22,345 nucleotides of DNA, taken from positions 1-22,345 of IMG/VR virus record IMGVR_UViG_3300044641_004693, one strand, 5' to 3'. Positions within the stretch are counted from its first letter, which is position 1. Each line of letters opens with the position of its first letter. Shown one piece after another: positions 1 through 19,376 of the stretch. Source of the stretch: a virus. A program made the translations under genes and the position numbers. The notes below the pieces were generated by a model, which made no database searches, was not told the DNA's origin, and saw only the letters and a list, made by a program, of their open reading frames with translations.

Positions 1-1132
1 GATACTGCTTGAGATCAAACATGTGTGGCAATAACACACGTTCCAGTTCACTTTGTAGGGCTCTTGCGCCGGTGCCAGATGTAATTGCACGGTCTACAAT
101 GGCCAAAATAGCCTGATCATCAAAGGCCAAATCTACTCCGTCCTGCTGAAACAACCAACGATACTGATCAATCAAGTTGTTTTTTGTTTCAATCAAGATA
201 CGCACAAGATCTGCTTTGTCCAGCTGCTGTAGGGCCACTGTAACTGGAAAGCGTCCAACAAATTCTGGAATCAAGCCAAATTTGACTAGATCGTCTGGGG
301 TGACTGTGCTGAGATCCACTGCGACATTTTTTGACTGCACATCTTTGCCAAATCCAATGCCACCGCCCACTGTACGTGCTTTGATAATTTTGTCCAGGCC
401 CACAAATGCACCACCTGCAATAAACAAGATATTGGTTGTATCAATTTCGACCATTTCACCCGATGGATGTTTGCGACCACCCGACACTGGCACACGACAT
501 ACAGTGCCTTCTACCATTTTTAGCAGGGCCTGTTGTACTCCTTCTCCCGACACGTCTCTGGTGATGCTGGCACTTTCACTCTTGCGTGATATCTTGTCAA
601 TTTCATCCACATATACAATACCACGCTGTGTCTTTTCCAAGCTGTTGCCGGAGTTGGCGTACAGTCTGGCAATAAGTGTTTCGACATCGTCGCCCACATA
701 ACCAGCTTCAGTGATACTGGTGGCATCAGCAATGGCAAATGGTACATCCAAGTACTTGGCAATGGTACGAGCCAGCATGGTTTTGCCGCAGCCACTGGGG
801 CCTACCATAAGGATATTGGCCTTGTTGATTTCGCGGTCGGGGTCTGAATTTGATATGCGTTTGTAGTGATTCACAATGGCCACTGCCAAGGTCATCTTGG
901 CTTGGATTTGCCCAACCACATATTGATCCAGGTATTGTTTTAGCTTCTTGGGATCTTGGCCATCTGCTTGTTGTTTTTGCACAGCATCAGCAGCATCATC
1001 GTTTTTCAGCAGGTCTTGGCAAAGATCCACACACTCGTTACAAATTGCCACTTCGTCACTGACTATCAACTTCTTTACTTCTTCTTTCTTCTTACCGCAA
1101 AAACTACACACATTCTTCAGTGTATCTGACAT
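1..1132 (-). CDS. clpX: ATP-dependent Clp protease ATP-binding subunit ClpX (C-terminus cut by window edge)
   Basis: AAA+ unfoldase that feeds substrates to the ClpP peptidase. I translated 377 codons from the ATG at 1132 with no stop; the reading frame runs off the window, and E. coli ClpX is about 424 aa, so little is missing. Visible in order: N-terminal zinc-binding domain (C9, C12, C31, C34); Walker A GPSGCGKT at 111-118; pore loop GYVG at 144-147; Walker B VYVDEID at 173-179; RKH-type loop at 220-222; IGF tripeptide at 259-261, the loop that docks on ClpP in characterised ClpX; arginine-finger segment IPEFVGRFP at 288-296; sensor-2-like GTGARAL at 353-359. All key motifs are intact, so it should be active and able to bind ClpP. 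Its ATG directly follows the TAG of the upstream gene (TAGATG), which suggests translational coupling. No clpP is seen here; the partner would be host ClpP or a phage gene elsewhere. Confidence 0.95.
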
Positions 1133-6141: not shown

Positions 6142-6320
6142 TATCGTATCTCCATGACTTGTTCGTAATGTGGATCAAGTGAGCCAGAGTAAGCACCGGA
6201 CATTTTGACGGATTTGGGTATTTTTTTACACTTGCAAAACCAACCTACAAATTCGTCGTAGTAGCCTTCGAACCGGAAAGGTGTTAGTTCAGTCTTGCAA
6301 TGTGGGCATACGGGTTTCAT
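6141..6320 (-). CDS. Zinc-ribbon-like small protein, 59 aa
   Basis: Begins MKPVCPHCKTELTPFRFEGY and has a CPHC knuckle (C5, C8) and a second CKC cluster (C29, C31), which could bind one zinc ion, though the second pair is one residue shorter than the usual CxxC. Good Shine-Dalgarno AAGGAATCAAA before ATG 6320. It lies 9 nt after the lipoprotein stop and overlaps the next gene by TAATG. Function unknown; small zinc-ribbon proteins are common in early regions of T4-like phages. Confidence 0.65.
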   Translation of the reverse strand: MKPVCPHCKTELTPFRFEGYYDEFVGWFCKCKKIPKSVKMSGAYSGSLDPHYEQVMEIR

Positions 6321-6329
6321 TTTGATTCC

Positions 6330-6605
6330 TTAAAATCGAGAGCAAGTTATGTATGATCCGGACTGATGGCAAGTAGTTGTTTTAGGTCCATAAGATTCAT
6401 ATTGATATGATACTTGTGGTGCAGAAGCACGGTTGATCATATACTGTTCAAATGCCGTTCGTTTGGTTTGATTATTGATACAGCCTAGATACATATCAGA
6501 TCCAGGTTTGAATCCGGCTTTTTGACAGTCCGTTGAGGCTTGCTGGAAACTACTAGCGCATCCGCTTAATAACAAAATCACTGCCGCTAAGATGATCTTT
6601 TTCAT
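6330..6605 (-). CDS. Small lipoprotein, 91 aa
   Basis: The start chosen is ATG 6605, with GGAG six nt upstream, giving MKKIILAAVILLLSGCASSF: a classic lipoprotein signal peptide with lipobox LSGC, so Cys16 should be lipidated after cleavage. A longer frame upstream exists but would bury the signal. The mature part is about 76 residues with Cys at several places (C24, C42, C80, C88 approximately) that could form disulfides in the periplasm. In phages such lipoproteins may act as outer spanins or superinfection-exclusion factors; neither is shown here, and no holin/endolysin neighbour is visible. It follows the 93-aa gene by 1 nt. Confidence 0.8.
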   Translation of the reverse strand: MKKIILAAVILLLSGCASSFQQASTDCQKAGFKPGSDMYLGCINNQTKRTAFEQYMINRASAPQVSYQYESYGPKTTTCHQSGSYITCSRF

Positions 6606-6606
6606 A

Positions 6607-6888
6607 TTATCTCCGATCTGGAAAGTATTCAAACAGTACAAACTTGGCACGGTTCAACAGTTGACGCTGGTCTTCCAACAGGTTAGCAAGAGTGTCGCCG
6701 TCATACGGGCCATAGCTGACCATCTCTTGTGCATCGCTCAACATACTGGCCGCAACCATTGCGGGACCAGAGAACTTAAAAGTAGAGCTGGACTCCACTG
6801 CTTCACGCATGCCCGCTTCGGTCACTCCAAACATACGCACTTGGTTTTTTTCTTGCTCAGTTAGAGCTTGGTAAGTTGCTGTAGTCAT
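6607..6888 (-). CDS. Hypothetical protein, 93 aa
   Basis: Not recognised. The start MTTATYQALTEQEKNQVRMF at ATG 6888 is chosen because a Shine-Dalgarno (CAGGAGCAGAAA) precedes it and the longer frame would read through the promoter. The protein is acidic and probably helical, ending in RQLLNRAKFVLFEYFPDRR. It is first in the unit that continues into the lipoprotein, zinc-ribbon and 35-aa membrane genes, driven by its own early promoter at 6919-6947. Confidence 0.75.
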   Translation of the reverse strand: MTTATYQALTEQEKNQVRMFGVTEAGMREAVESSSTFKFSGPAMVAASMLSDAQEMVSYGPYDGDTLANLLEDQRQLLNRAKFVLFEYFPDRR

Positions 6889-6895
6889 TTTCTGC

Positions 6896-6977
6896 TCCTG
6901 TTTGTTCACTGTATATACATTATAGTGGATCTGGGATTTCTGGTCTACCGTTTTCTGAGTGTTGCCTAAATACAACA
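6896..6977 (-). repeat. Early promoter/stem-loop module, copy 1 (diverged)
   Basis: Upstream to downstream on the minus strand: a TGTTG/CAACA stem with 8-nt loop (6960-6977), a -35/-10 pair (6919-6947), and a leader resembling the two more conserved copies at 7450 and 7892 (TTTGT...CACTG...ACAGTGAACAAACAGGA). Confidence 0.7.
6919..6947 (-). promoter_or_regulatory. Sigma70-type early promoter, module copy 1
   Basis: TAGACC (6942-6947), 17-bp spacer, TATAAT (6919-6924), reading toward the 93-aa gene. The -35 differs from the TTGACC of its sister promoters by one base. Confidence 0.75.
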
Positions 6978-6978
6978 G

Positions 6979-7200
6979 TTAAATCAAGTGCCTATGTAGC
7001 AATCCTACCACATAAATCACCAATAATCCGGCGTTGATCACTACCAAACTCAACTCACGGATACGGATGGCCCAAATCAGGTACAAGGTACTTCCTACAT
7101 TTAACAGGTAAATGTTGAGTGGATCCATTTGTAGGCTTGTGGTCAGGGCACCGGCTAAGGTAAGAAAGCAGGCGGTCCACTTTAAGATATTATTCAGCAT
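6979..7200 (-). CDS. Small integral membrane protein, 73 aa
   Basis: Three hydrophobic helices fill the protein: about 5-24, 28-46 and 50-70, with a central Pro-Leu-Asn-Ile-Tyr (PLNIYLLNVGSTLYLIWAIR) followed by IRELSLVVINAGLLVIY. Short three-helix proteins of this type resemble half-transporters (SemiSWEET/PnuC-like), but that is only a topological similarity. Good Shine-Dalgarno AAGGAACCCG before ATG 7200, which overlaps the stop of the upstream 77-aa gene (CTAAGGA). It is followed directly by the stem-loop of module copy 1. Confidence 0.75.
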   Translation of the reverse strand: MLNNILKWTACFLTLAGALTTSLQMDPLNIYLLNVGSTLYLIWAIRIRELSLVVINAGLLVIYVVGLLHRHLI

Positions 7201-7208
7201 CGGGTTCC

Positions 7209-7442
7209 TTAGCTGTTGACAGTATTGAACGGGCTGTGATCTTCAAAGATCCACCCTTGCTCTTGCAAGTAGGCGCGATTGGCTGGATTTTTGGTAAACG
7301 CATCCAGGGCTTCTAAACGGCGCACAATAGCGCAACGGCCTGTGCCGTGTTGGCGATCACGATAACCTGTGACTGACTTTGAATAATCGCTGAGAATGTC
7401 TGCTAGGTCTGCATCGCTGTAACGGCTGTTGAACCAATCCAT
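7209..7442 (-). CDS. Hypothetical protein, 77 aa
   Basis: Not recognised. A small soluble protein starting MDWFNSRYSDADLADILSDY and rich in Asp, Arg and Tyr; the middle (RDRQHGTGRCAIVRRLEALDAF) looks helical. Strong Shine-Dalgarno CAGGAGTAACAA before ATG 7442, in the conserved leader of promoter module copy 2. It is cotranscribed with the 73-aa membrane protein. Confidence 0.75.
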   Translation of the reverse strand: MDWFNSRYSDADLADILSDYSKSVTGYRDRQHGTGRCAIVRRLEALDAFTKNPANRAYLQEQGWIFEDHSPFNTVNS

Positions 7443-7449
7443 TTGTTAC

Positions 7450-7519
7450 TCCTGTTTGTTTACTGTAAAAACAGTATAGCATTTTGGGTATTTCTGGTCA
7501 ACCAAAAAGTGTTGTATTA
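7450..7519 (-). repeat. Early promoter/stem-loop module, copy 2
   Basis: A 34-bp leader segment (7450-7483) is identical to 7892-7925 and includes the -10 box, an ACTGT/ACAGT mini-hairpin and the AACAAACAGGA Shine-Dalgarno region. Beyond the -35 it shares CAACACTTTTTGGTTGACC with copy 3. The upstream stem is weaker (TTGT/ACAA). Confidence 0.8.
7473..7501 (-). promoter_or_regulatory. Sigma70-type early promoter, module copy 2
   Basis: TTGACC (7496-7501), 17-bp spacer, TATACT (7473-7478) with TGC just before the -10 (extended -10), reading toward the 77-aa gene. Confidence 0.8.
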
Positions 7520-7882
7520 AAACAATATGTCCCACAAGAAAAGAGGTACAGCAAGGAAACACGCAATGAAAAATAGAATCAAAGTCCAAAGAAACTTGAC
7601 AAAGGTCACTATTCCCCAATGTGGGAAAAACAAGAATCCTATTACAACCACTGCAACCAAGATTAACAATGCTATGTAGATTGGCCATGGCGGAGGAGCA
7701 GTGTCGCTGTAACCACCACCAAAACCACCACCGGCTCCCGCCTGTTGGGACAACAGTTTGTTTTGTTGGTCTAGTTTTTCATTGGTCTGGCAACCCGCGC
7801 AAGTCAATGACCAACCGTATGGTTTTACTGTACCGCACCGAATACAGTTTGAATTATTTTTTAGGTAATTACCGTCGCTCAT
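7517..7882 (-). CDS. Zinc-ribbon membrane protein, 121 aa
   Basis: The start MSDGNYLKNNSNCIRCGTVK at ATG 7882 is chosen because the longer frame would read through the early promoter leader. It has an N-terminal zinc ribbon (CIRC ... CAGC, CX2C-X12-CX2C, residues 13-31), a Gln-rich segment, a Gly-rich linker (AGAGGGFGGGY) and two hydrophobic helices near the C-terminus (about 69-89 and 93-119). The layout is that of a membrane-anchored protein with a cytoplasmic zinc ribbon. Function unknown. It is alone between promoter copies 3 and 2. Confidence 0.8.
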   Translation of the reverse strand: MSDGNYLKNNSNCIRCGTVKPYGWSLTCAGCQTNEKLDQQNKLLSQQAGAGGGFGGGYSDTAPPPWPIYIALLILVAVVVIGFLFFPHWGIVTFVKFLWTLILFFIACFLAVPLFLWDILF

Positions 7883-7891
7883 GTTTGCCAG

Positions 7892-7980
7892 TCCTGTTTG
7901 TTTACTGTAAAAACAGTATAGCATTAGGGCGATTTTGGGTCAACCAAAATCTCAGCAAAAAGTGTTGTTTTTCAGCAACA
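7892..7980 (-). repeat. Early promoter/stem-loop module, copy 3
   Basis: It contains a TGTTG (7963-7967), 8-nt loop, CAACA (7976-7980) stem followed on the minus strand by CTTTTT, which may weakly terminate the 629-aa gene transcript. After it come the promoter (7915-7943) and the 34-bp leader (7892-7925) identical to that of copy 2. Confidence 0.8.
7915..7943 (-). promoter_or_regulatory. Sigma70-type early promoter, module copy 3
   Basis: TTGACC (7938-7943), 17-bp spacer, TATACT (7915-7920) with an extended TGC, reading toward the 121-aa zinc-ribbon gene. Confidence 0.8.
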
Positions 7981-7981
7981 A

Positions 7982-9871
7982 TTACGCAGAAGTTGCAGGT
8001 ATTTGGGTGTCAGAACCTATTCCAGCTGTGTCAAATACCTTGATATTTCTGCCTTCTCTAAAGCTGGCAATAATGGCTTGCCCGTACTGATTTGAAGTGT
8101 CAGTGATTGCTGTAAAGAAATCGTTTTGACCTTTTGGGGCCACATCTGTGCCAATGTCGTGCAGACTACTGCTGAGACTCATGACGCTGCTTCTGGAGTT
8201 GGCAGCAAGATCTGTAAATGTCACTTGTGCAAGAACCAAGTTATTTGTTTCTGCGCTCAACTGCTGAGCCATTGTGGTAAAGCTGGTATTGAGACTACTG
8301 GTGTTGCTGGCGTTGTTTGCGGCCACGTTGGCAATAAGGTTGGCAGCGGCTGGTATTAGACCGGTACTGAAAGCAGCATCCAAGTTGCCATATGTTCCTG
8401 CTCCCGGCAAGCCTGGTGGGATAGTGATGGTGATTTCGATGGGGCTGGGATTTACTACCGTGGTATAATCACCGTTTAGTGTGTCTTGCATTACGGTATA
8501 AACGCCGTTGGTGGCGTCAGTTAAGGTGTAGAGAGCATTGGCTGACTGCATGTAGTTTATGGTGCTGGTCACGGAAGTGAATTCAGCAGTATAAGGTACG
8601 CCAGCAGTGGCACCCATGAAGTCAAACAAGGTTAGTGTACCGTTTGGACCTGTTCCTGTGGCCAAGGTACTGTTGATGTTGGAAGCAACACTGGCAGGAA
8701 CAGGTTTTGTTAGGGCAGTAATATCTCCCAAGCCCGAGTTGGTTTCAGTTGTTGCTACTGTTCTGGCCAACACTGGCAAGGTCAGTTGAAAAATGTTTTT
8801 GACCTGTTGCAAACTGTCAGCAATGGCCTGCGCAGCTAAGGCCTGGTCTGGTGGTATAATCTTAGATAAACCAACGTAGGCTGGGCTGGTACCATACACT
8901 AACAGCAGATTGCTGTTGACAGTGGCAGCAGAAACATACACATTGCTGAGCACCGTGGCAGTGGGGCTGACATCAGTACCAGTGGGTGTTAAATTGGTCA
9001 GACCCAAGTAACTGTTGGGCAGGCTCTTTACTGGATTCAACAGGTCAGCCATTGTGGACAAGTTTTCAGTGGTCACACTCAACAGCAGCTTGACCTGATC
9101 TAGTAGGTCGCCTGTGACTTGAGTCATGACTTGATAAATCAACAGATCCACTGATCCAGCCACTTCAGATCCGCGTTGTATAGAACTGAGGTCATCTATA
9201 GTAACTCCAGCATTGATTAACTGTTGTGTCAATTCTGGCATGATACCGCCAGCTTGTGACATTTGATACAGTAACACCCAGGGATATCCAAACAGCGGTA
9301 ATTTGTTCAAGGCCCAAGCAGTTCCTAGTTTGGCCAAGTCTGCGCCAAATGTCGGCAAGTTTCTATTGATGTCGCTAATGCCACCTGTAGTTATGCTGTT
9401 CATACTGGTAAAGGTTGTGTCCAACACCGCAGAATTTTTTACACTGTTGATGATGGGATTGTTTTGTACAATATAGCCTTGACACTGACCATATACCTGT
9501 GCAAACTTGCCCAGGTCGCCGTTGCCCAAGATTAAGTTTGCCTGTGTGGTCACCAGACCCGAAAACCCTGTGGCACTGTTGCCAATAGGCAAGGTGTTGG
9601 CATACGCAGCAGGCACTGCATCAGTAATGGCTGGCAGTGTGTTGGCCGCCAGGCTCTGTAAAGAACTAAAAGTGCTGGTGGTGATTTGATCATTGGCTGT
9701 GCCCACATTGGCAGCAGCCGATGACAGTATACCAAGATAGTCACTGACCGCAGTGGTACTGGCATAAGCATTAATGGCCACTGTCAAGTTGCCACTGATC
9801 ACGAGACCTTGGTTTTGCAGTAGGCCATCAGTGGCAATCAACATTACTGAACTATAAGGACCTTGACTCAT
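7982..9871 (-). CDS. Probable virion structural protein, 629 aa
   Basis: Long, nearly Cys-free protein rich in Ala, Thr, Ser, Asn, Leu and Val, beginning MSQGPYSSVMLIATDGLLQN. Its composition is typical of phage tail or baseplate proteins. Many segments repeat the same style of Asn/Thr-Leu helices without exact repeats. It is 3 nt downstream of the PAAR gene and must share its late transcript, which supports a tail-tip or baseplate location. No enzymatic motif is visible and I do not recognise the family. It could instead be a secreted or injected effector carried by the PAAR spike. A weak stem-loop follows its stop. Confidence 0.75.
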   Translation of the reverse strand: MSQGPYSSVMLIATDGLLQNQGLVISGNLTVAINAYASTTAVSDYLGILSSAAANVGTANDQITTSTFSSLQSLAANTLPAITDAVPAAYANTLPIGNSATGFSGLVTTQANLILGNGDLGKFAQVYGQCQGYIVQNNPIINSVKNSAVLDTTFTSMNSITTGGISDINRNLPTFGADLAKLGTAWALNKLPLFGYPWVLLYQMSQAGGIMPELTQQLINAGVTIDDLSSIQRGSEVAGSVDLLIYQVMTQVTGDLLDQVKLLLSVTTENLSTMADLLNPVKSLPNSYLGLTNLTPTGTDVSPTATVLSNVYVSAATVNSNLLLVYGTSPAYVGLSKIIPPDQALAAQAIADSLQQVKNIFQLTLPVLARTVATTETNSGLGDITALTKPVPASVASNINSTLATGTGPNGTLTLFDFMGATAGVPYTAEFTSVTSTINYMQSANALYTLTDATNGVYTVMQDTLNGDYTTVVNPSPIEITITIPPGLPGAGTYGNLDAAFSTGLIPAAANLIANVAANNASNTSSLNTSFTTMAQQLSAETNNLVLAQVTFTDLAANSRSSVMSLSSSLHDIGTDVAPKGQNDFFTAITDTSNQYGQAIIASFREGRNIKVFDTAGIGSDTQIPATSA

Positions 9872-10213: not shown

Positions 10214-10861
10214 TTATGTATTGGCCAGTTGTGCAAGATACTGGTCAGTAGCCGGAGTTCGAACACCAGTTACTTGCAGCGTTACTCTTGGGTGATGGCT
10301 GGCATTGGCTGTGGCATGTGGTAGATTTTGCCAATCAAATGTGGTCACTTCGCCGGCACGCCAACGACTATGGCAGTAGTTGCCATAACTCCAAAACTGT
10401 CCAGATTCCCAATCAGTCAGCTGTATTTGTACACGAAGCACACTGTCGGGATCGTCGGGATTCCACTTTTCCAACTTGTCCAGGTGCAGGTTCCAAACTT
10501 GACCAGGCATTTGTACGTGAATACGAGCCATGGAATCTTCCAAGGCAAAGCGGTCAGCAATATCTTGTAACACAGGAGGAATTGCCCAGTTGAGATTGCT
10601 AATCACATAGTCTTTACCGTAGCCTTCACGTTCCAGGTCGTAGTCTTCAGCGGCTAGTTCTTCTTCAGGACGGCTTTTGCCCGCAGCACCCCGTGTGCGC
10701 CAAGTAGCAGACCGCGAGTTGGCCACAATGTCTGCCAACTCTGAATCCCAGCAGGGTTCAATAAATCCCAAGCGCACAACACGATCTTGATCGGGATCAA
10801 ATTGTTGATTATCAAAATGATATTGACTGCGTTTTTTTGTTTCGTCCCAGGAGCTTTTCAT
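10214..10861 (-). CDS. 2-oxoglutarate/Fe(II)-dependent oxygenase
   Basis: 215 aa. Expected to hydroxylate or otherwise oxidise a substrate using 2-oxoglutarate and O2. The double-stranded beta-helix signature is complete: iron ligands H126-x-D128 (NLHLDK) and distal H182 (NLPHATAN), and the 2OG-binding R192 (HPRVTLQVTG). The segment VLRVQIQLTDWESGQFWSYG matches the strands between them. Substrate not deducible; it could be a protein side chain, a nucleotide or a small metabolite. ATG 10861 overlaps the upstream sulfotransferase-like stop (ATGA), so it is the last gene of the tctA-tctC cassette. Phages of marine bacteria often carry such oxygenases. Confidence 0.88.
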   Translation of the reverse strand: MKSSWDETKKRSQYHFDNQQFDPDQDRVVRLGFIEPCWDSELADIVANSRSATWRTRGAAGKSRPEEELAAEDYDLEREGYGKDYVISNLNWAIPPVLQDIADRFALEDSMARIHVQMPGQVWNLHLDKLEKWNPDDPDSVLRVQIQLTDWESGQFWSYGNYCHSRWRAGEVTTFDWQNLPHATANASHHPRVTLQVTGVRTPATDQYLAQLANT

Positions 10862-11472
10862 ACGACTGTTACCTCTATGTCTGATTTTTTATAACTTTGA
10901 TAATACTCCATTGGCGGTGGTTCGATACCCAAGGTTCTTGCCAAGGTCAGGTTGTCACCAATGTAATAGCTGTCTTTCCATGCTGCCAAGATGTCACGAT
11001 TTTGATCTGCAATGATGCCGGCCATGTTTCTTAAGTTTACGTAATACTTATCATATTTGGGGTATGTGATGTCAAAGTGTCCGCACTTGACCCACCAGCC
11101 CAGGCAAGCATCGTCGTTTCTGTGTACCAGAATAACAGGACACTCGGGCCAATGCTGCTTTAAGAAATCAATATGATGCGCAAACACATGACTCTTAACA
11201 ATGCGTACACCTTCACCTGAAAATGGACGATCAAATTCTGCTTCACATTCAGCTTTGGTATATTCGTTTAGTCGATCAAAGAATCCGCCAAATTCCATGC
11301 CGGGATCAAAGTATGCGCCCATATGCATCAAATGTGGTTCTCCCCAAGCACTGTGCCAGTATTCGCGTTCAGGACTTGCGTCACTACGATCGATACTGGG
11401 ACTAAAGTAAATGTTCTTGCTGACACTGGACCACTTGGATCCCGGTGCACCTGCCATAAAAATATATTTCAT
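10858..11472 (-). CDS. Sulfotransferase-like protein
   Basis: 204 aa. It resembles PAPS-dependent sulfotransferases: a P-loop-like 5'-phosphosulfate segment near the N-terminus (MAGAPGSKWSSVSKNI, 6-21) and a 3'-phosphate-binding-like stretch (VILVHRNDDACLGWW, 113-127) preceded by the IVKSH strand (91-95). The P-loop GAPGSKWSSVSK departs from the usual GxPRSGTT, so PAPS use is not certain. Substrate unknown. It overlaps tctC upstream and the oxygenase downstream by 4 nt each (ATGA), so all are translated together. Alternative: a kinase-like P-loop protein. Confidence 0.7.
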   Translation of the reverse strand: MKYIFMAGAPGSKWSSVSKNIYFSPSIDRSDASPEREYWHSAWGEPHLMHMGAYFDPGMEFGGFFDRLNEYTKAECEAEFDRPFSGEGVRIVKSHVFAHHIDFLKQHWPECPVILVHRNDDACLGWWVKCGHFDITYPKYDKYYVNLRNMAGIIADQNRDILAAWKDSYYIGDNLTLARTLGIEPPPMEYYQSYKKSDIEVTVV

Positions 11473-12530
11473 TTGATCACCAATTCAGGTTTGTAAACGC
11501 TTTTGAATTGATAAGCATTGTCGTGCCACCAAACCAAAGTCTGCAATTTTTTCTCAGTGATATTTTTACGCAAGCGATCTACAACTTGATTACCGTCTGC
11601 GCCGACAATCCATGTGTAACGACCCGAGTCTGCTTCTAATGCTTTGACTGCGTCGGGATCGGCTAACATACTGCGAAGTGCTGCTCGCAATTTTTCTGCA
11701 TTGGGATTACCTTTGTTTACCCACAAAGCCTTTTGTAACACATCTCTAAAGTTTCTTTGCAGTGTATACGCTTCATACAATTCGCCACGAGGCTCTTGTC
11801 CGTATATGCGTTTGAAGACATCTTCAAATCGAAAACCTGGAGGAAAGTTAGGATCTTCTTGCTGCTGACCTGTTGCTAAATCTAACACACCGTGGTGATA
11901 CCAAATCTTGCTGTCGGGTTTGTTGACATAGTGTTTGATCCAAGCAGCCGGTGTTTCTCTCACTGTGTTGAGTTCTCCTCGCTGATATGCCAATCTGCGT
12001 TCTGAACCTTTGATTCCGTTGACCCAGGTCACATGTTTTTTCCAACATGCCAGGTAATTTTCTTTCTTGGGCAAGTTGCCGCAGACCAGCATGGCAATGG
12101 CCATGCCGTCGGGTTCAAGTCCCGAGCCACCAGCAATACGTATACGATCACGTTCAGGATTAGTTGTAGCTGCATGTCCTAATACAATGTTGAGATTCTG
12201 CATGCCAATGGAATCGTAGTGCTTGTAGTCATAGTCAATTTGGTCTACCAGATAACTGACGCCGTTGCCGCCGTGGCTGACCATGATCACTTTGGGATCT
12301 GTTCTTAGCTTGTTGTGAAACTCGTTAAAGCCAGGAATGTCTTTGGCCCCAGGAATGTGCTGGATTACAATTTTTTCTCCCAGATGCTTTTCTAAATGTC
12401 GGGCAACAATGTTGGCCCAAACACTGGTGCCACCTCCGGGTGCCTGTGGTACAATCATGCGATACTCAGCATGTGCTGTGCTGACTACAACAGCCAATCC
12501 AGCAATGATCAATTTTACTATGTTGCGCAT
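11469..12530 (-). CDS. tctC: Tripartite tricarboxylate transporter periplasmic binding protein (TctC/Bug family)
   Basis: 353 aa. The signal peptide (1-22, MRNIVKLIIAGLAVVVSTAHA then E) is followed by the Bug-family start YRMIVPQAPGGGTSVWANIV, where the G-rich loop binds the carboxylate ligand. Length is slightly above the usual 320. It should capture a di- or tricarboxylate or related organic acid in the periplasm and pass it to TctA. Shine-Dalgarno AAGGAGATTAAT overlaps the tctA stop; the gap is 11 nt. It also overlaps the sulfotransferase-like gene. The middle region (about 150-230) is less like ordinary Bug proteins, so the ligand cannot be guessed. Confidence 0.85.
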   Translation of the reverse strand: MRNIVKLIIAGLAVVVSTAHAEYRMIVPQAPGGGTSVWANIVARHLEKHLGEKIVIQHIPGAKDIPGFNEFHNKLRTDPKVIMVSHGGNGVSYLVDQIDYDYKHYDSIGMQNLNIVLGHAATTNPERDRIRIAGGSGLEPDGMAIAMLVCGNLPKKENYLACWKKHVTWVNGIKGSERRLAYQRGELNTVRETPAAWIKHYVNKPDSKIWYHHGVLDLATGQQQEDPNFPPGFRFEDVFKRIYGQEPRGELYEAYTLQRNFRDVLQKALWVNKGNPNAEKLRAALRSMLADPDAVKALEADSGRYTWIVGADGNQVVDRLRKNITEKKLQTLVWWHDNAYQFKSVYKPELVIK

Positions 12531-12541
12531 ATTAATCTCCT

Positions 12542-13981
12542 TTAATGATATGCTAACCCGCGATTGGGTCTAAAAATACTGTAAGTTACAATGACTAGAG
12601 AAATAACGGTTAGAGACACAAATATGGGTCGTGTTGCCAATTCGTTTATGGTGTACAAGGCTTGAGTTTGCTGAATGTAATTTTCCAGTTTCTCTACCAG
12701 GATAAATGCCACCATCACTGCTGGGCGTGAGATACCAAATTTTTTGCAAGCCACGCCCAACACACTGCACAATGCCAAAATATAAAGATCGTTCACAGTT
12801 CCAGTGTATTCCAAGCAACTCCATACAATAATGGACAAGATCACAACAGCGTAAATCCAGTAGGGTATTTCCAGCAGCTTGACCACAATGCGTGTGGTAA
12901 ACATTGCAATAAAAAATGCTAATACCGTGCTGGCAATAAATGCTCCGCCCAGGCTCCAGAAAAATGCAGTGTCTTTGAGTGTTTCAGGTGTGCCCAATTC
13001 CATTCCAAAGTAAACACATATGGCCATCATAATGGCTGCAAATGGTGCACCAGGGATGCCAAACAACACAGTAGGAACCATGCTGGAAGCTTTTTGTGCA
13101 TTGTTGGCACCTTCGCAGCCCAGCAAGCCTTTGATGTTGCCGTTGCCAAATGTTTCTCGGGGATTCTTAGCCACTGTGGCACCATAGGCCATGATGTCGC
13201 CTACCGATCCACCAATTCCTGGCAGCAGGCCTGAAACAAATCCAATGAATCCACCACGCAAAACTTCACGCCAATGCATCACACAATCTCTGAACCCACG
13301 AAACAGTTGCGGCCAATAATCTGTAATGGGTTCTGGGCGTACTGCAGATTTTCTAAATCCCGACATGACTTCTGGTATACCAAACAAGCCAGCAATCAAA
13401 GGAATCAATTGTATGCCGGCTCCGAGATATTCCCAACCACCGGTATAACGCACAACTCCCGTGGCAGGGTTTTGCCCAATCATACCTAGAAAACAGCCCA
13501 GGCCGATGGCCACCAAACTCAGCAGCACATTTTTGCTGGTAATGAATCCCACACAGGCCAGTGCCATCAACATGAACGCCATAAACTCCGGAATACCAAA
13601 TACCAATACCAATTTGGAATACCATGGCATCAGTGCAAATGCTATTGTGCCCCACAGCACTCCGTTTACAGTGGAATCCATAATGGCAATGCCAATGGCA
13701 CGAGCAGCCTGTCCTTGCTGCGACATCTTGTATCCATCAATAATGCTGGCAGCGGTGGAATTACTACCGGGTATTCCGGTCAAGATACTGGTGAAACTGT
13801 CGCCAGTTGACGATGCTGCTATTAGACTGGTTAAAAACACAATGCCCAAGTAAGGATCTGCAAGAAAGTAACTGCTGAGTCCAAACACAGTTAATAAACC
13901 TGTGGTGGCCCCAGCCATTGGCATGATGCCAATAATCATTCCATAAACAGTACCAAGCAGGCACCAAATCACATAATCCAT
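12542..13981 (-). CDS. tctA: Tripartite tricarboxylate transporter large membrane subunit (TctA family)
   Basis: 479 aa, about a dozen hydrophobic helices. Ion-coupled permease that takes a carboxylate from TctC. Family signatures are intact: GIPGS at 69-73, GLLPGIGGSVGDIMAYG at 251-267 and the CEGANNAQKASSMVP ... FGIPGAP segment at 289-313, matching the EAANNA ... LGIPGs motif of TctA. Length matches the usual 500. The small subunit TctB (about 150 aa, four helices) is not encoded anywhere in this window, although the next gene is directly tctC. The start ATG 13981 is preceded by 115 nt of AT-rich intergenic DNA holding a late-type octamer. Confidence 0.9.
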   Translation of the reverse strand: MDYVIWCLLGTVYGMIIGIMPMAGATTGLLTVFGLSSYFLADPYLGIVFLTSLIAASSTGDSFTSILTGIPGSNSTAASIIDGYKMSQQGQAARAIGIAIMDSTVNGVLWGTIAFALMPWYSKLVLVFGIPEFMAFMLMALACVGFITSKNVLLSLVAIGLGCFLGMIGQNPATGVVRYTGGWEYLGAGIQLIPLIAGLFGIPEVMSGFRKSAVRPEPITDYWPQLFRGFRDCVMHWREVLRGGFIGFVSGLLPGIGGSVGDIMAYGATVAKNPRETFGNGNIKGLLGCEGANNAQKASSMVPTVLFGIPGAPFAAIMMAICVYFGMELGTPETLKDTAFFWSLGGAFIASTVLAFFIAMFTTRIVVKLLEIPYWIYAVVILSIIVWSCLEYTGTVNDLYILALCSVLGVACKKFGISRPAVMVAFILVEKLENYIQQTQALYTINELATRPIFVSLTVISLVIVTYSIFRPNRGLAYH

Positions 13982-14096
13982 CGAGTTACCGTGTTGAGAG
14001 AGAAATATATTGCAGAAGATTTTGCAAGATAATTAATACTATATATCAAAAATTTATTTGTTTAACAAATTTATTTATCAAAATAGGAAATTTTTA
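13982..14096. promoter_or_regulatory. Divergent AT-rich intergenic region between tctA and methyltransferase genes
   Basis: No gene. It contains ATTTGTT-T-AACAAAT (14057-14071), an imperfect palindrome, plus repeats of AAATTTATTT. A possible weak -35/-10 pair on the minus strand (TTGTTA, 17 bp, TATATA) points to tctA. Confidence 0.5.
14072..14079 (-). promoter_or_regulatory. Late-type octamer GATAAATA upstream of tctA
   Basis: Same octamer as the PAAR late promoter, 91 nt before the tctA ATG on the minus strand. In such AT-rich DNA it may be a chance match. Confidence 0.4.
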
Positions 14097-14831
14097 ATGA
14101 ATAGCAAAATTTTTAATTGTATCTTAGAAAAATTACAAGATACCTGGCATTTACCAAAATACGCAGAAATTCGTGCCGATTTCAACAAAGACACTGTGTT
14201 AGATCAATTGCCTTGGACTCCGGCACGCAAACTAAAGTTTCAGCAAGATTTAAGTTCTACATTCAATGTACCTGTTGAAATAGAAGGCACTATTGCTAAT
14301 CTAGTTAACAGAACCGATGTACGTTACTTGTCGTGGTTCTTTGGTGAGATATGGAAGCCCCGTACAGAAAAATATCATTGGACTGGATATCGTGTTGCAG
14401 AAGAAATTTGTCGTATGAATCCACGAAAAGTATTGGATGTGGGTTGCGGATACAATCCCTTTAAAGGACGTATTCCTAATCTCATAGGTATTGATCCTTA
14501 CAACAACTGTGCTGACTTCATGGTCGACATCTTGGATTATCATGTAGAGCCTGCTAGCTTTGATCATGTGATTGCCCTGGGTTCAATCAACTTCAACAGC
14601 AGGGAAGATATTGAACTACGGTTCTCTGCCACTATCAACTTGCTGGCACCAGGCGGTCATTTGTGGATGCGTTGCAACCCAGGACACAGTCATAAAAATG
14701 GACCATGGGTTGAAATTTTCCCATGGTCCTTCGATGTTGCTTACGAGTTAGCCAAGCAGTTCGACTTAACTCTAGAAACTCTTAAACAGGATCAAGACAG
14801 ATTGTTTTTCCTGTTCAAGCGTAACGCTTAA
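14097..14831 (+). CDS. Class I SAM-dependent methyltransferase
   Basis: 244 aa from ATG 14097, chosen over an upstream TTG because AGGAAATTTTTA gives a good Shine-Dalgarno. Motif I VLDVGCGYNPF at 112-122 binds SAM; the acidic residue D133 (LIGIDPYNNC) follows strand 2; the post-I region DILDYHV and a later LLAPGGHLW (182-190) fit the Rossmann fold. An N-terminal helical segment of about 105 residues precedes it. Substrate unknown. It is one of two plus-strand genes, divergent from tctA, and its stop overlaps the convergent Sm-like gene by 3 nt (14829-14830 shared with that TAA). AT content appears higher than that of its neighbours, which may indicate recent acquisition. Confidence 0.85.
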   Translation: MNSKIFNCILEKLQDTWHLPKYAEIRADFNKDTVLDQLPWTPARKLKFQQDLSSTFNVPVEIEGTIANLVNRTDVRYLSWFFGEIWKPRTEKYHWTGYRVAEEICRMNPRKVLDVGCGYNPFKGRIPNLIGIDPYNNCADFMVDILDYHVEPASFDHVIALGSINFNSREDIELRFSATINLLAPGGHLWMRCNPGHSHKNGPWVEIFPWSFDVAYELAKQFDLTLETLKQDQDRLFFLFKRNA

Positions 14832-16863: not shown

Positions 16864-17055
16864 TTACCAATTTTTAAGTATGTTTGCAATAATAAAAATG
16901 CAAGTTACCACATGTATAATGACCCAAAAAGTTTTAAGAAACAGTGCTATACGAGCTTCTCTAAGTGTAAGAATAGGAACATCTGGTCGATCATCGTCGG
17001 TATTACCCATCAAATGCCCAGTTGCCCTGGCCCATATCTTTTCAAAACTATTCAT
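16864..17055 (-). CDS. Small membrane protein between nrdA and nrdB, 63 aa
   Basis: Starts MNSFEKIWARATGHLMGNTD; a polar N-terminal half is followed by LREARIALFLKTFWVIIHVVTCIFIIANIL, giving one or two membrane helices at about 32-60. Placed between nrdA (2-nt gap) and nrdB (3-nt gap), so it is cotranscribed with both reductase genes. A role in anchoring or localising nucleotide synthesis is conceivable but unproven; I know no function for it. Confidence 0.75.
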   Translation of the reverse strand: MNSFEKIWARATGHLMGNTDDDRPDVPILTLREARIALFLKTFWVIIHVVTCIFIIANILKNW

Positions 17056-17057
17056 AG

Positions 17058-19376
17058 CTAGAGTTTGCAGGCCTCACAGTCTTCTGCATCATCAAAATCA
17101 ACAGCTTCTAGCATCACTGGTGCATCTTCTGCTGCGGCTTTGCTGCCTTGTTTGTTGATCAAGCTGTAGTAGAATGTTTTTAAACCCCAATGGTGTGCCT
17201 GCATCAAGTTTTTAGCAATCAATGTAGTTGGCACTTTACGATCTGCCCAGTGTGCCGGATTGTAGAATGTGTTGGTTGAAATTGACTGGTCGACATAAGC
17301 TGCCAACACTGCCGCAGTCTTTAAATAGCCAACACAGTCTGTTTGTTCCCACATCAGTTGATAACGATTCTTCAACTTTTGGTATTCTGGAACAACCTGT
17401 ACCAATGATCCGGCTTTTGATTCTTTGACAGTGATCAAGCTCATTGGCTGTTCAATACCGTTGGTACTGTTGATAACAACACTGCTGGATTCCACAGGAG
17501 CAATGGCCATTTGCGTGGCATTACGTACACCTGATTTAATCATGCGTTCACGCAATGGTTCCCAAGGAAGTTCTGCTGTGAAGTCTGCAAGTTCGTTGAC
17601 ACCGGCAGCACGTAATTCCCAAGGAAACTTACCTTGTCCGTAACGTGTCTGGCTACTGTGATCGCAAGCACCGCGTTCTTCCGCAAGCTCTACGCTGGCT
17701 TCTGTCAAATAGAACGCTTGATGTTCCATCCAGGATTTAACATCTGCTAAAGCATCGGCATCGCCGTACTTGAGTCCACGTTTGGCATGCCAGTAAGCCA
17801 GGTTGGTAATACCAATACCCAAGGGGCGAATCTCGTCATTGCTTAGTTTACTTTGTATTGATAAGAAGTCTTGATAGTCCAAGATGTTGTTTAAGCTGCG
17901 ATGAAGTATACGACAAGCACGACGCATGTCTTCCGGGTTACGGAATGCACCCCAGTTGATAGAACCCAGGGTACATAAGGCAATGCGACCTTGGTCGTCA
18001 TCGAGCCGTTGGAACGGCACTGTAGGCAATAAGATTTCACAGCACAAGTTGCTTTGATAGATGGTATGATACTCAGGGTCAAACGGACCTTGATTCATTA
18101 CGTTGTCAATAAACACAAGATAGATACGACCAGTGTCGGTGCGTTCTTTGAGCAAGCCCGACTTGAATACTTCTTCAGCACTCATTGTTTTCTTACGTAG
18201 GTCTTTGCGCTTTTCGTATCGGACATACAGCTCTTCGAACAATTTTGTATCGCTATAGAAAGCTTGATGCAGATCAGGTACTTCGTTGGGATCAAAGAAG
18301 GTAATGTTTTCTTTGTTCTTAAAGCGACGCCAAAATAACGCACTTAGAACAACACCGTAGTCCATGAAGCGCACACGAGTTTCTTCTGTGCCTTGGTTGT
18401 TCTTCAGCACAATCAAGTCATCAAACTGATAGTGCCATATGGGATAAAATACTGTAGCTGATGCATTACGAATGCCACCTTGGCTGCAACTACGTAGGTC
18501 ACCAAACCACTTTTTCAAGAATGGGATCATGCCTGTGTGCATGATCTCGCCACCGCGTATGGGTGCGCCTAGCGGGCGTAAGCGACCAATCTCCAAGCCA
18601 ATGCCGGCACGTTTGGCCGCATACTTGGCCATCATCTCGCCACTAGCAAAGATACTGTCAAGATTATCATCGCTACGAATAAGAACACAGCTACTAAACT
18701 GCTTAGTGGGTGTGCCAAGACCTGCAAGTACAGGAGTAGCAAGAGTGAATAAGCCATCCGACGCTGCATTATAATATTCTTTGATATAACGCATACGGAC
18801 TGTGTTGGGTTCTTCTCGATGAAATACTGTTGCTGCCGCAACCATGTATCGCACTTGTGGAGTTTCGTATGTTTCTTTTGTGGTACGATTGCGCACCAGA
18901 TACTTTTCGATCAGCTGTTCGATTGCAGCATATCCGTACTGTTCATCTTTCTCGTGATCGATGATGTCGTCCATGCGATTCCAATCATCTTCTGTGTACC
19001 AAGTCAGTAGTTCACTGGTATACACACCTGCTGCCACGTTCTTGCAAACGATTTCGTACAGGCGAGGAGGCTCGTAACTACCATATACGTCCTTGCGGAG
19101 CATACTCAAGCGTTGCTTGCCGGCTACATATTGATAATTTACATGTCCCACATCAGGATTGGATTCTACATCAATCAAATCCACTATAGCACGTAGAGTT
19201 ATTTCGTCGATTTCTTTTGTGGTAATGCCATCGTAAAAATGCGGCTGGCTTTTGATTTCTATCATCGATTGACTTACATCTGCTATGCCACTGCAAACTT
19301 TGGTAATTTGCGCTTGCCATTTATCGATGTTTAAAGGCTCACGATTACCGTTTCTTTTTTGAACTTGAATTGTCAT
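17058..19376 (-). CDS. nrdA: Ribonucleotide reductase class Ia, alpha subunit
   Basis: 772 aa. Reduces ribonucleoside diphosphates. The N-terminal ATP-cone (1-95) provides allosteric activity control. Catalytic residues by E. coli alignment: C230 (SSCVLI), N443, C445 and E447 (SNLCCEILLP), second catalytic Cys C468 (IALCTLGSIN), radical-transfer pair Y736-Y737 (TFYYSL) and the C-terminal C767/C770 pair (CEACKL) that receives electrons from glutaredoxin or thioredoxin. Nothing is missing. ATG 19376 follows the 141-aa gene by 7 nt; a Shine-Dalgarno is not obvious. It leads the nrdA-63aa-nrdB-109aa group. Confidence 0.97.
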   Translation of the reverse strand: MTIQVQKRNGNREPLNIDKWQAQITKVCSGIADVSQSMIEIKSQPHFYDGITTKEIDEITLRAIVDLIDVESNPDVGHVNYQYVAGKQRLSMLRKDVYGSYEPPRLYEIVCKNVAAGVYTSELLTWYTEDDWNRMDDIIDHEKDEQYGYAAIEQLIEKYLVRNRTTKETYETPQVRYMVAAATVFHREEPNTVRMRYIKEYYNAASDGLFTLATPVLAGLGTPTKQFSSCVLIRSDDNLDSIFASGEMMAKYAAKRAGIGLEIGRLRPLGAPIRGGEIMHTGMIPFLKKWFGDLRSCSQGGIRNASATVFYPIWHYQFDDLIVLKNNQGTEETRVRFMDYGVVLSALFWRRFKNKENITFFDPNEVPDLHQAFYSDTKLFEELYVRYEKRKDLRKKTMSAEEVFKSGLLKERTDTGRIYLVFIDNVMNQGPFDPEYHTIYQSNLCCEILLPTVPFQRLDDDQGRIALCTLGSINWGAFRNPEDMRRACRILHRSLNNILDYQDFLSIQSKLSNDEIRPLGIGITNLAYWHAKRGLKYGDADALADVKSWMEHQAFYLTEASVELAEERGACDHSSQTRYGQGKFPWELRAAGVNELADFTAELPWEPLRERMIKSGVRNATQMAIAPVESSSVVINSTNGIEQPMSLITVKESKAGSLVQVVPEYQKLKNRYQLMWEQTDCVGYLKTAAVLAAYVDQSISTNTFYNPAHWADRKVPTTLIAKNLMQAHHWGLKTFYYSLINKQGSKAAAEDAPVMLEAVDFDDAEDCEACKL

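Follow-up and report, generated by a model that had tools for sequence, protein, structure and literature searches.

A phage gene cassette around a TctC/Bug-fold binding protein with an optional TctA-type permease

The classical TctA-TctB-TctC transporter (TTT) needs TctB. A stretch of viral DNA of 22,345 nucleotides (the window) encodes a TctA-type permease and a TctC/Bug-fold binding protein with no TctB beside them, followed by a sulfotransferase-like and an oxygenase-like gene, which raises the question of what such a set of genes does for a phage. The window proved to contain one version of a cassette that is widespread in phages, and the presence of phage genes for a binding protein, with or without a permease, suggests that the uptake of the infected cell is changed.

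Genes and layout of the window cassette

The four genes lie on the minus strand between positions 10214 and 13981, with an 11-nt gap between tctA and tctC and 4-nt overlaps between tctC and the sulfotransferase-like gene (ST) and between ST and the oxygenase gene. The open reading frames thus agree with the first-pass annotation, which had described the four genes with this spacing. The permease gene, tctA (12542 to 13981, minus strand), encodes 479 amino acids that matched PF01970 over the full length in a Pfam search (E 2.2e-91, 307 bits), represents the TctA component of a TTT system, and carries no fused TctB. Its neighbor (11469 to 12530, minus strand) encodes a 353-amino-acid periplasmic binding protein (SBP) that had no TctC match in Pfam, NCBIfam or PHROGs, with a subthreshold GDSL hit as the sole Pfam result; Pfam recognized just 2 of 43 phage TctC members. 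Its sequence likeness to the TctC/Bug component is weak (PDB profile match to BugD, 8e-5), and the assignment comes from the fold. The structure model (pLDDT 93.6) has a Bug/TctC fold, with Z scores of 19.2 to 22.4 to 11 TctC/Bug entries among the matches listed and of 13.6 to the next entry. The window protein has a predicted signal peptide, as do 41 of the 43 phage TctC members and 27 of 29 related lone Bug proteins (see below), against 166 of 1,500 control proteins, by a simple home-made rule (as is our membrane-span rule) that one protein reading as cytoplasmic also passed. A TctB encoded alongside was absent from the window, as the first-pass annotation had noted, and a search of the window's record, itself a fragment, gave no match.

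ST (10858 to 11472, minus strand) encodes a sulfotransferase-like P-loop protein of 204 amino acids. It matched PF13469 weakly (E 0.0036; 18 bits, under the cutoff of 27). Across the family, 21 of 53 proteins match this model at E ≤ 0.01, the lowest value being 2.6e-5, and a comparison with PDB sequences gave no notable match. The last gene (10214 to 10861, minus strand) encodes 215 amino acids with no Pfam match; among 55 family members, one matched Asp_Arg_Hydrox (0.0029). In a Foldseek search with its model (pLDDT 96.1), the leading matches were prolyl-4- and proline hydroxylases, with E values of 4e-6 at best and TM-scores of 0.39 to 0.53, and H126, D128, H182, and R192 are invariant across the 55 members. 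We take the first three to be the H-x-D...H motif and R192 to be the 2-oxoglutarate (2OG)-binding arginine. The double-stranded beta-helix fold and these residues place the protein in the 2OG/Fe(II) oxygenase superfamily, and the model points to a 2OG/Fe(II)-oxygenase-like, putative enzyme. A gene missing from the first-pass cassette, divergent from it at 14058 to 14831 (plus strand) and resembling a SAM methyltransferase (weak PF13649 match, 0.0055), adjoins the cassette in most relatives and belongs to its neighborhood.

Co-occurrence and exchange in related viruses

We scanned up to 80 loci nearest to each query, out of 126 TctA, 241 TctC, 224 ST, and 286 Bug viral relatives; the oxygenase query yielded 27 loci and the methyltransferase query 36. 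The counts therefore apply to the closer relatives of the window's proteins, and those of genes within 4 kb cover unique proteins with at least 2.5 kb on both sides, others being dropped. The co-occurrence in related phages on which the proposed cassette stood or fell was found: within 4 kb of phage TctC, TctA was present in 78 of 78 unique nearest-relative loci, the methyltransferase in 67, the oxygenase in 58, and ST in 52, and the latter three became rare beyond 5 kb from tctC. The tctA/tctC pairs were on the same strand in 103 of 104 cases and at most 30 nt apart in 95, and the protein distances of TctA and TctC were correlated (n = 101, r = 0.84, 0 of 2,000 permutations). Purifying selection acts on the transport genes: dN lay well under dS in the comparisons, although dS was saturated in 7 of 14. 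This selection and the 78 of 78 loci place the adjacency of TctA and TctC beyond chance. The set is wider than the first-pass annotation described, taking in the methyltransferase and a version with a single binding protein, and the order of the four genes in the window is only one among several. The neighborhood varies, and many other enzyme-like genes are present in it.

In many relatives, a single canonical Bug/TctC protein (lone Bug) occupies the slot between the methyltransferase and ST, and TctA is absent. A blastn comparison of the window with one such relative, L188, placed the breakpoints at gene ends (11474 and 14047), so that window positions 11475 to 14046 are exchanged for a stretch at 6969 to 7998 of L188, where the lone Bug gene spans 7021 to 8004. 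Among the 49 nearest unique loci of the Bug-anchored scan, ST was found within 4 kb in 43 (directly downstream of Bug in 34), the methyltransferase in 47, the oxygenase in 35, and TctA in none. Thirty Bug loci reached via other cassette genes gave 30, 30, 29, and 0, respectively, counts that lean toward the genes used to fetch them, the Bug-anchored scan being fairer. Over whole records with a lone Bug, many of them fragments, TctA was present in 1 of 44 and no permease was found in the other 43. In one record, G484, TctB and TctA genes form a pair roughly 19 kb away from the lone-Bug cassette. The SBP is therefore the usual part of the cassette and the permease optional.

Additional binding-protein genes without a permease were found: 18 of 47 records carry such genes of the TctC family and 5 of 47 carry DctP genes, with no DctM permease in 12 records. 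Three full-length DctP proteins were checked, all lacking a signal peptide by the simple rule, which fits poorly with periplasmic capture. In two loci (L200 and L228), binding-protein genes also adjoin genes resembling those of PP-loop ATPases (no Pfam match), so a role outside transport is possible.

TctB is rare: one of 85 virus records has a match (0 of 50 and 1 of 35). The records may be fragments, and the TctB model failed to recognize 2 of 4 fused TctB-like ends. A small membrane protein replacing TctB was considered and rejected, since such short genes occur near tctC in some loci and not generally: three membrane-protein-like clusters (16, 21, and 22) were present in 16, 14, and 14 of 132 loci, a set that leaves out 25 further loci on contigs already represented and counts near-identical contigs separately, and L072 has a DUF6552 gene. 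The gap in L073 and L074 encodes not TctB but another protein with a signal-peptide-like start.

Origin of the transport genes

The carriers are many uncultured T4-like viruses of bacteria, of aquatic origin to judge from the record titles. Some of the cassette-bearing records reach 300 kb and more. The T4 capsid protein gp23 was detected in 18 of 40 records, covering both cassette versions (one match being short and weak), though not in G484. Host contamination or chimeric assembly, by which the genes would not be phage genes at all, draws on the fact that all virus sequences are metagenomic and that, among 50,697 isolated-phage records, none matches TctC or the lone Bug, two match ST, and one matches the oxygenase. 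We give it almost no credence, given the hundreds of viral relatives, the gp23 genes, the phage genes surrounding the cassette, and collinear contigs from other samples; moreover, only 2 loci with phage-type transport proteins were found in a collection of 84,980 genomes, a scan using two short peptide patterns that distant relatives may escape. Seven isolated-phage records match TctA, at no more than 28% identity. Marine virus AG-345-D19 has ST, while TctA and TctC are absent from the 16.5 kb examined.

The phylogenetic placement proposed in the first-pass annotation was made for TctA: the phage proteins form one clade, which a long branch with full support separates widely from the 29 bacterial sequences sampled. 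The latter are the top-scoring ones from 398 Pseudomonadota genomes, the tree is midpoint-rooted, and bacterial L321 carries a long-branch warning, so the deeper placement of phage TctA is not fixed. Together with the 2 loci in 84,980 genomes, the separate clade makes both phage TctA and TctC look phage-specific. The best-scoring bacterial TctAs are about 650 to 680 amino acids long with a C-terminal extension (14 loci), TctB-like by Pfam in 2 of 4 checked, one of them below the cutoff. A loss of TctB from a TctA-TctB fusion was rejected, as phage TctA sits apart from these extended proteins in the tree with the 29 bacterial sequences.

Possible roles of the cassette and its likeness to known systems

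The explanation that we find probable, though far from certain, is a phage organic-anion uptake module around the periplasmic TctC/Bug-type binding protein that supplies or redirects import. The exported binding protein would catch a carboxylate-type solute during infection and hand it over to a TctA-type permease. The window phage's own TctA would work without TctB or with a host TctB, and the binding protein of lone-Bug relatives would plug into host TctA/TctB, G484 encoding TctB and TctA itself. ST, the oxygenase, and the methyltransferase would probably act on, or be fed by, the imported compound. A working uptake route, held plausible in the first-pass annotation, is supported by the purifying selection, the TctC-family fold, and the predicted signal peptides (41 of 43); however, the absence of TctB beside the cassette, given the classical need for it, counts against an uptake module. 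A fuller version, which we consider less likely than not, would be an old, phage-specific, TctB-free TctA-TctC transporter that can be swapped for a lone Bug working through the permease of the host, feeding phage enzymes (ST, the oxygenase, and the methyltransferase) that convert the import.

Other explanations account for part of these observations. The binding protein may retain or sense a periplasmic ligand, or it may modify the cell surface or the traffic of receptors, for instance to fend off a second phage, with TctA serving that role. The 43 permease-free lone-Bug records (many of them fragments), the several binding-protein genes per record, and the DctP proteins without a signal peptide would fit, but phage TctC has a permease gene nearby in all 78 loci and G484 has TctB and TctA genes, which makes this unlikely. 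Two unrelated sets, transport genes and small tailoring enzymes for surface, nucleic acid, or small-molecule modification, might instead share one variable region. Many other enzyme-like genes in this neighborhood, and ST and oxygenase relatives without a nearby binding protein, agree with this: 7 of 58 ST loci lack one within 4 kb, two of which (L029 and L038) have tctC farther off and one (L208) a DctP gene, with none found in L218, L239, L240, and L245. However, ST starts directly behind the lone Bug in 34 of 49 loci and overlaps tctC in the window, and the three enzyme-like genes are rare beyond 5 kb from tctC, so we consider separate sets improbable. The first-pass proposal that the transporter feeds 2-oxoglutarate, or a precursor, to the oxygenase fared worse, and we now judge it quite improbable. 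It gains from the oxygenase-like gene near phage tctC (58 of 78) and the lone Bug (35 of 49), and from TctC relatives that bind malate and oxoadipate according to PDB entry titles (6hke and 5oei). Against it, host cells make 2-oxoglutarate themselves, no such oxygenase lies within 4 kb in 20 of 78 phage-TctC and 14 of 49 lone-Bug loci (for phage TctC, roughly one-quarter to one-third of the loci lack the oxygenase or ST in that range), the lone Bug is tied more tightly to ST than to the oxygenase, and both enzymes stay with the binding protein even where TctA is gone.

If the uptake explanation is true, T4-like phages alter the set of dissolved organic acids that an infected cell takes up, and the slot swaps a host-dependent binding protein for a self-supplied transporter. 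The widespread phage TctA lineage with no TctB found beside it would also be a natural test of the need for TctB. Like the TctA-TctB-TctC transporter, the cassette has a TctA family member adjoining a TctC/Bug-fold protein; unlike it, it has no adjacent TctB, a very divergent TctC, and a phage-type TctA. We know of no cyanophage with PstS that carries the rest of the Pst system. The lone-Bug relatives likewise encode a binding protein without a permease (TctA near 0 of 49), whereas the window has TctA. As described in passages of one study, cyanophage PstS is a periplasmic phosphate-binding protein of T4-like phages thought to help infected cells take up more nutrient (PMC3429862), a likeness to the cassette, which differs in its protein family and solute, its permease gene (window version), and its three enzyme-like genes. 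In the open papers covered by our searches on tct genes and phage transporters, we found only one related mention: passages on SUP05 viral contigs in 2014 named a tctA domain and a 2OG oxygenase as AMGs, calling the tctA role unknown (PMC4164917), as repeated for the tctA domain in a passage of a 2019 review (PMC6359870). Both kinds of gene are thus shared with those marine viruses, and the 2014 passages on tctA contain no TctC, cassette, exchange, or phylogeny. The first-pass annotation knew of no described phage system of this composition; the papers covered gave none for the cassette, but a viral tctA domain as such had been mentioned.

In Bug-rich bacteria, TctC-family binding proteins outnumber permeases (orphan Bug proteins), and a first look gave up to 201 Bug candidates in one genome. 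The lone Bug resembles these orphans in lacking its own permease. A host origin was rejected, however: phage lone Bugs score about 490 to 540 bits on their own profile, whereas the best bacterial protein reached 131 bits on a like profile, with 36 of 299 genomes matching at 1e-20.

Gene layout and encoded proteins

In the window, a virus record of 22,345 bases, ORF reading gives a cassette of four minus-strand genes: tctA (13981-12542), a gene for a 353-aa binding protein with a signal peptide (12530-11469), a gene for a sulfotransferase-like protein, ST (11472-10858), and an oxygenase-like gene (10861-10214). These coordinates confirm the spacing reported in the first-pass annotation, an 11-nt gap followed by two 4-nt overlaps. 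A methyltransferase-like gene (14058-14831) lies on the plus strand, opposite tctA, and starts 76 bases upstream of it. The cassette is flanked by phage-type genes, encoding PAAR, ribonucleotide reductase, DNA ligase, exonuclease, and a tail-spike-like protein. Judged from its translation, a ClpX-like ATPase gene (2-1132, minus strand) is truncated by the window edge.

Pfam identified TctA as a full-length PF01970 protein. We failed to find any family match above cut-off for the 353-aa protein in Pfam, NCBIfam, or PHROGs. Its PDB matches were weak, both with its sequence alone (every one of the Bug/TctC type) and with its family profile (6 of 7 of this type). Its predicted structure (pLDDT 93.6) matched the 11 listed TctC/Bug entries with Z scores of 19.2-22.4 across 267-278 residues, the next entry scoring 13.6. 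The oxygenase model (pLDDT 96.1) had prolyl and proline hydroxylases as its top structural matches, with modest TM-scores, and H126, D128, H182, and R192 were kept throughout the family. ST appears sulfotransferase-like by sequence, at low significance.

Neighborhood conservation and exchange for a lone Bug gene

Viral-contig scans yielded 126 TctA and 241 TctC relatives, the best 80 of each being retained, so that the counts describe relatives close to the window's proteins. Among the resulting 132 loci, the gene clusters were TctC (127), TctA (126), methyltransferase (101), ST (79), and oxygenase (79). When only unique proteins with flanks of at least 2.5 kb were counted, tctA lay within 4 kb of the phage tctC in 78 of 78 loci, the methyltransferase in 67, the oxygenase in 58, and ST in 52; these four were seldom found more than 5 kb away. 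Across pairs, protein distances for TctA correlated with those for TctC. The order of tctA and tctC varied (64 versus 39 of 103 same-strand pairs), and the window's four-gene order was preserved in its nearest relatives. A carbamoyltransferase gene (PF16861, PF02543; L036:4034-5545) was close to the cassette in one locus, its cluster being present in 9 of the 132.

Scans anchored on ST, the oxygenase, and the methyltransferase found many loci without phage tctA-tctC. In the first six read, one canonical Bug/TctC gene occupied the slot between the methyltransferase gene and ST (PF03401, E 1.1e-20, in L200). Locus L188 is collinear with window 19136-3623, with 82-85% identity on either side of the slot, and its positions 6969-7998 stand in place of window 11475-14046. 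The same span holds three further differences, near window 16870-17120, 15430 (where L188 is longer by ~1.2 kb), and 6320-6600. A Bug-anchored scan, with the best 80 of 286 relatives retained, gave 49 unique loci with flanks, of which 47 had the methyltransferase, 43 ST (directly downstream in 34), and 35 the oxygenase; TctA and phage TctC were found in none of the 49. Rubrerythrin/diiron-like and class-I glutamine-amidotransferase-like proteins recur between the methyltransferase and the binding protein (L200:5776-7033, L208:5692-7999, L240:5210-6461).

Permease source and possible role

Whole-record searches found no TctA in 43 of the 44 ST-bearing records without cassette-adjacent TctA, many of them fragments. 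The single exception, the 158-kb record G484, carries adjacent TctB and TctA at 113147-115062, ~19 kb from its Bug-ST-oxygenase set. The contig also carries a phage clamp loader and a tail-fibre-like gene; a search of it for the T4 capsid protein gp23 gave no match. This TctB/TctA pair (L334:7148-9063) is canonical, with a 4-base overlap, and is shortly preceded by a tryptophan-halogenase gene (PF04820, 1.4e-84; L334:5100-6677). Apart from G484, no TctB was found in 85 virus records with a TctB model that is insensitive, missing 2 of 4 fused ends.

Extra TctC-family genes were present in 18 of 47 records, at most three per record, and TRAP-type DctP genes in 5 of 47; no DctM permease was found among 12 records searched. 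The three full-length DctP proteins checked had no signal peptide, unlike the Bug proteins, and look as though they were kept in the cytoplasm. DctP or DctP-like (TRAP-type) proteins without a signal peptide are encoded at L200:12074-13015, L228:1639-2598, and L208:13250-14194. Genes with an SGG(G/S)DS motif, PP-loop ATPase-like by reading and with no Pfam match, adjoin or overlap binding-protein-like genes in L200 (10717-15286) and L228 (3353-5379 and 8745-13307), as repeated pairs.

The binding protein is the usual element of the cassette, with a permease coming from phage TctA, from phage TctB-TctA as in G484, or presumably from the host. A binding protein with a variable permease source is consistent with an uptake module, and cyanophage PstS offers a parallel as a phage-encoded binding protein (PMC3429862). 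ST, the oxygenase, and the methyltransferase stay near either version, which suggests that in both their substrates would be identical or similar solutes. The cassette may possibly supply 2-oxoglutarate to the oxygenase.

The cassette probably belongs with the genes for nutrient uptake already known from phages. In a 2014 paper on SUP05 viral contigs, tctA and a 2OG oxygenase are among four putative AMGs, tctA by domain match only and with its role termed unknown (PMC4164917); both are relisted in a 2019 review (PMC6359870). In the open papers searched, we found no description in phages of TctA paired with TctC, of the exchange for a lone Bug gene, or of the set of enzymes.

Origin and viral nature

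A scan of the genome collection found phage-type TctC at two loci. One (L301) is a 7.9-kb contig within a Pelagibacter MAG, with a complete cassette. The other (L300) is a marine MAG contig in which the surroundings of the phage-type tctA, tctC, and ST (6527-9686) read as bacterial, possibly through phage-to-host transfer or misassembly. The phage TctAs, including that of L300, formed one clade, and a branch of 2.14 changes per site separated it from the 29 bacterial TctAs sampled, all from Pseudomonadota. Therefore, a recent host origin was not seen among the genomes sampled (Pseudomonadota for the tree). A T4-type capsid protein was found in 18 of 40 records, among them some with tctA-tctC and some with a lone Bug gene.
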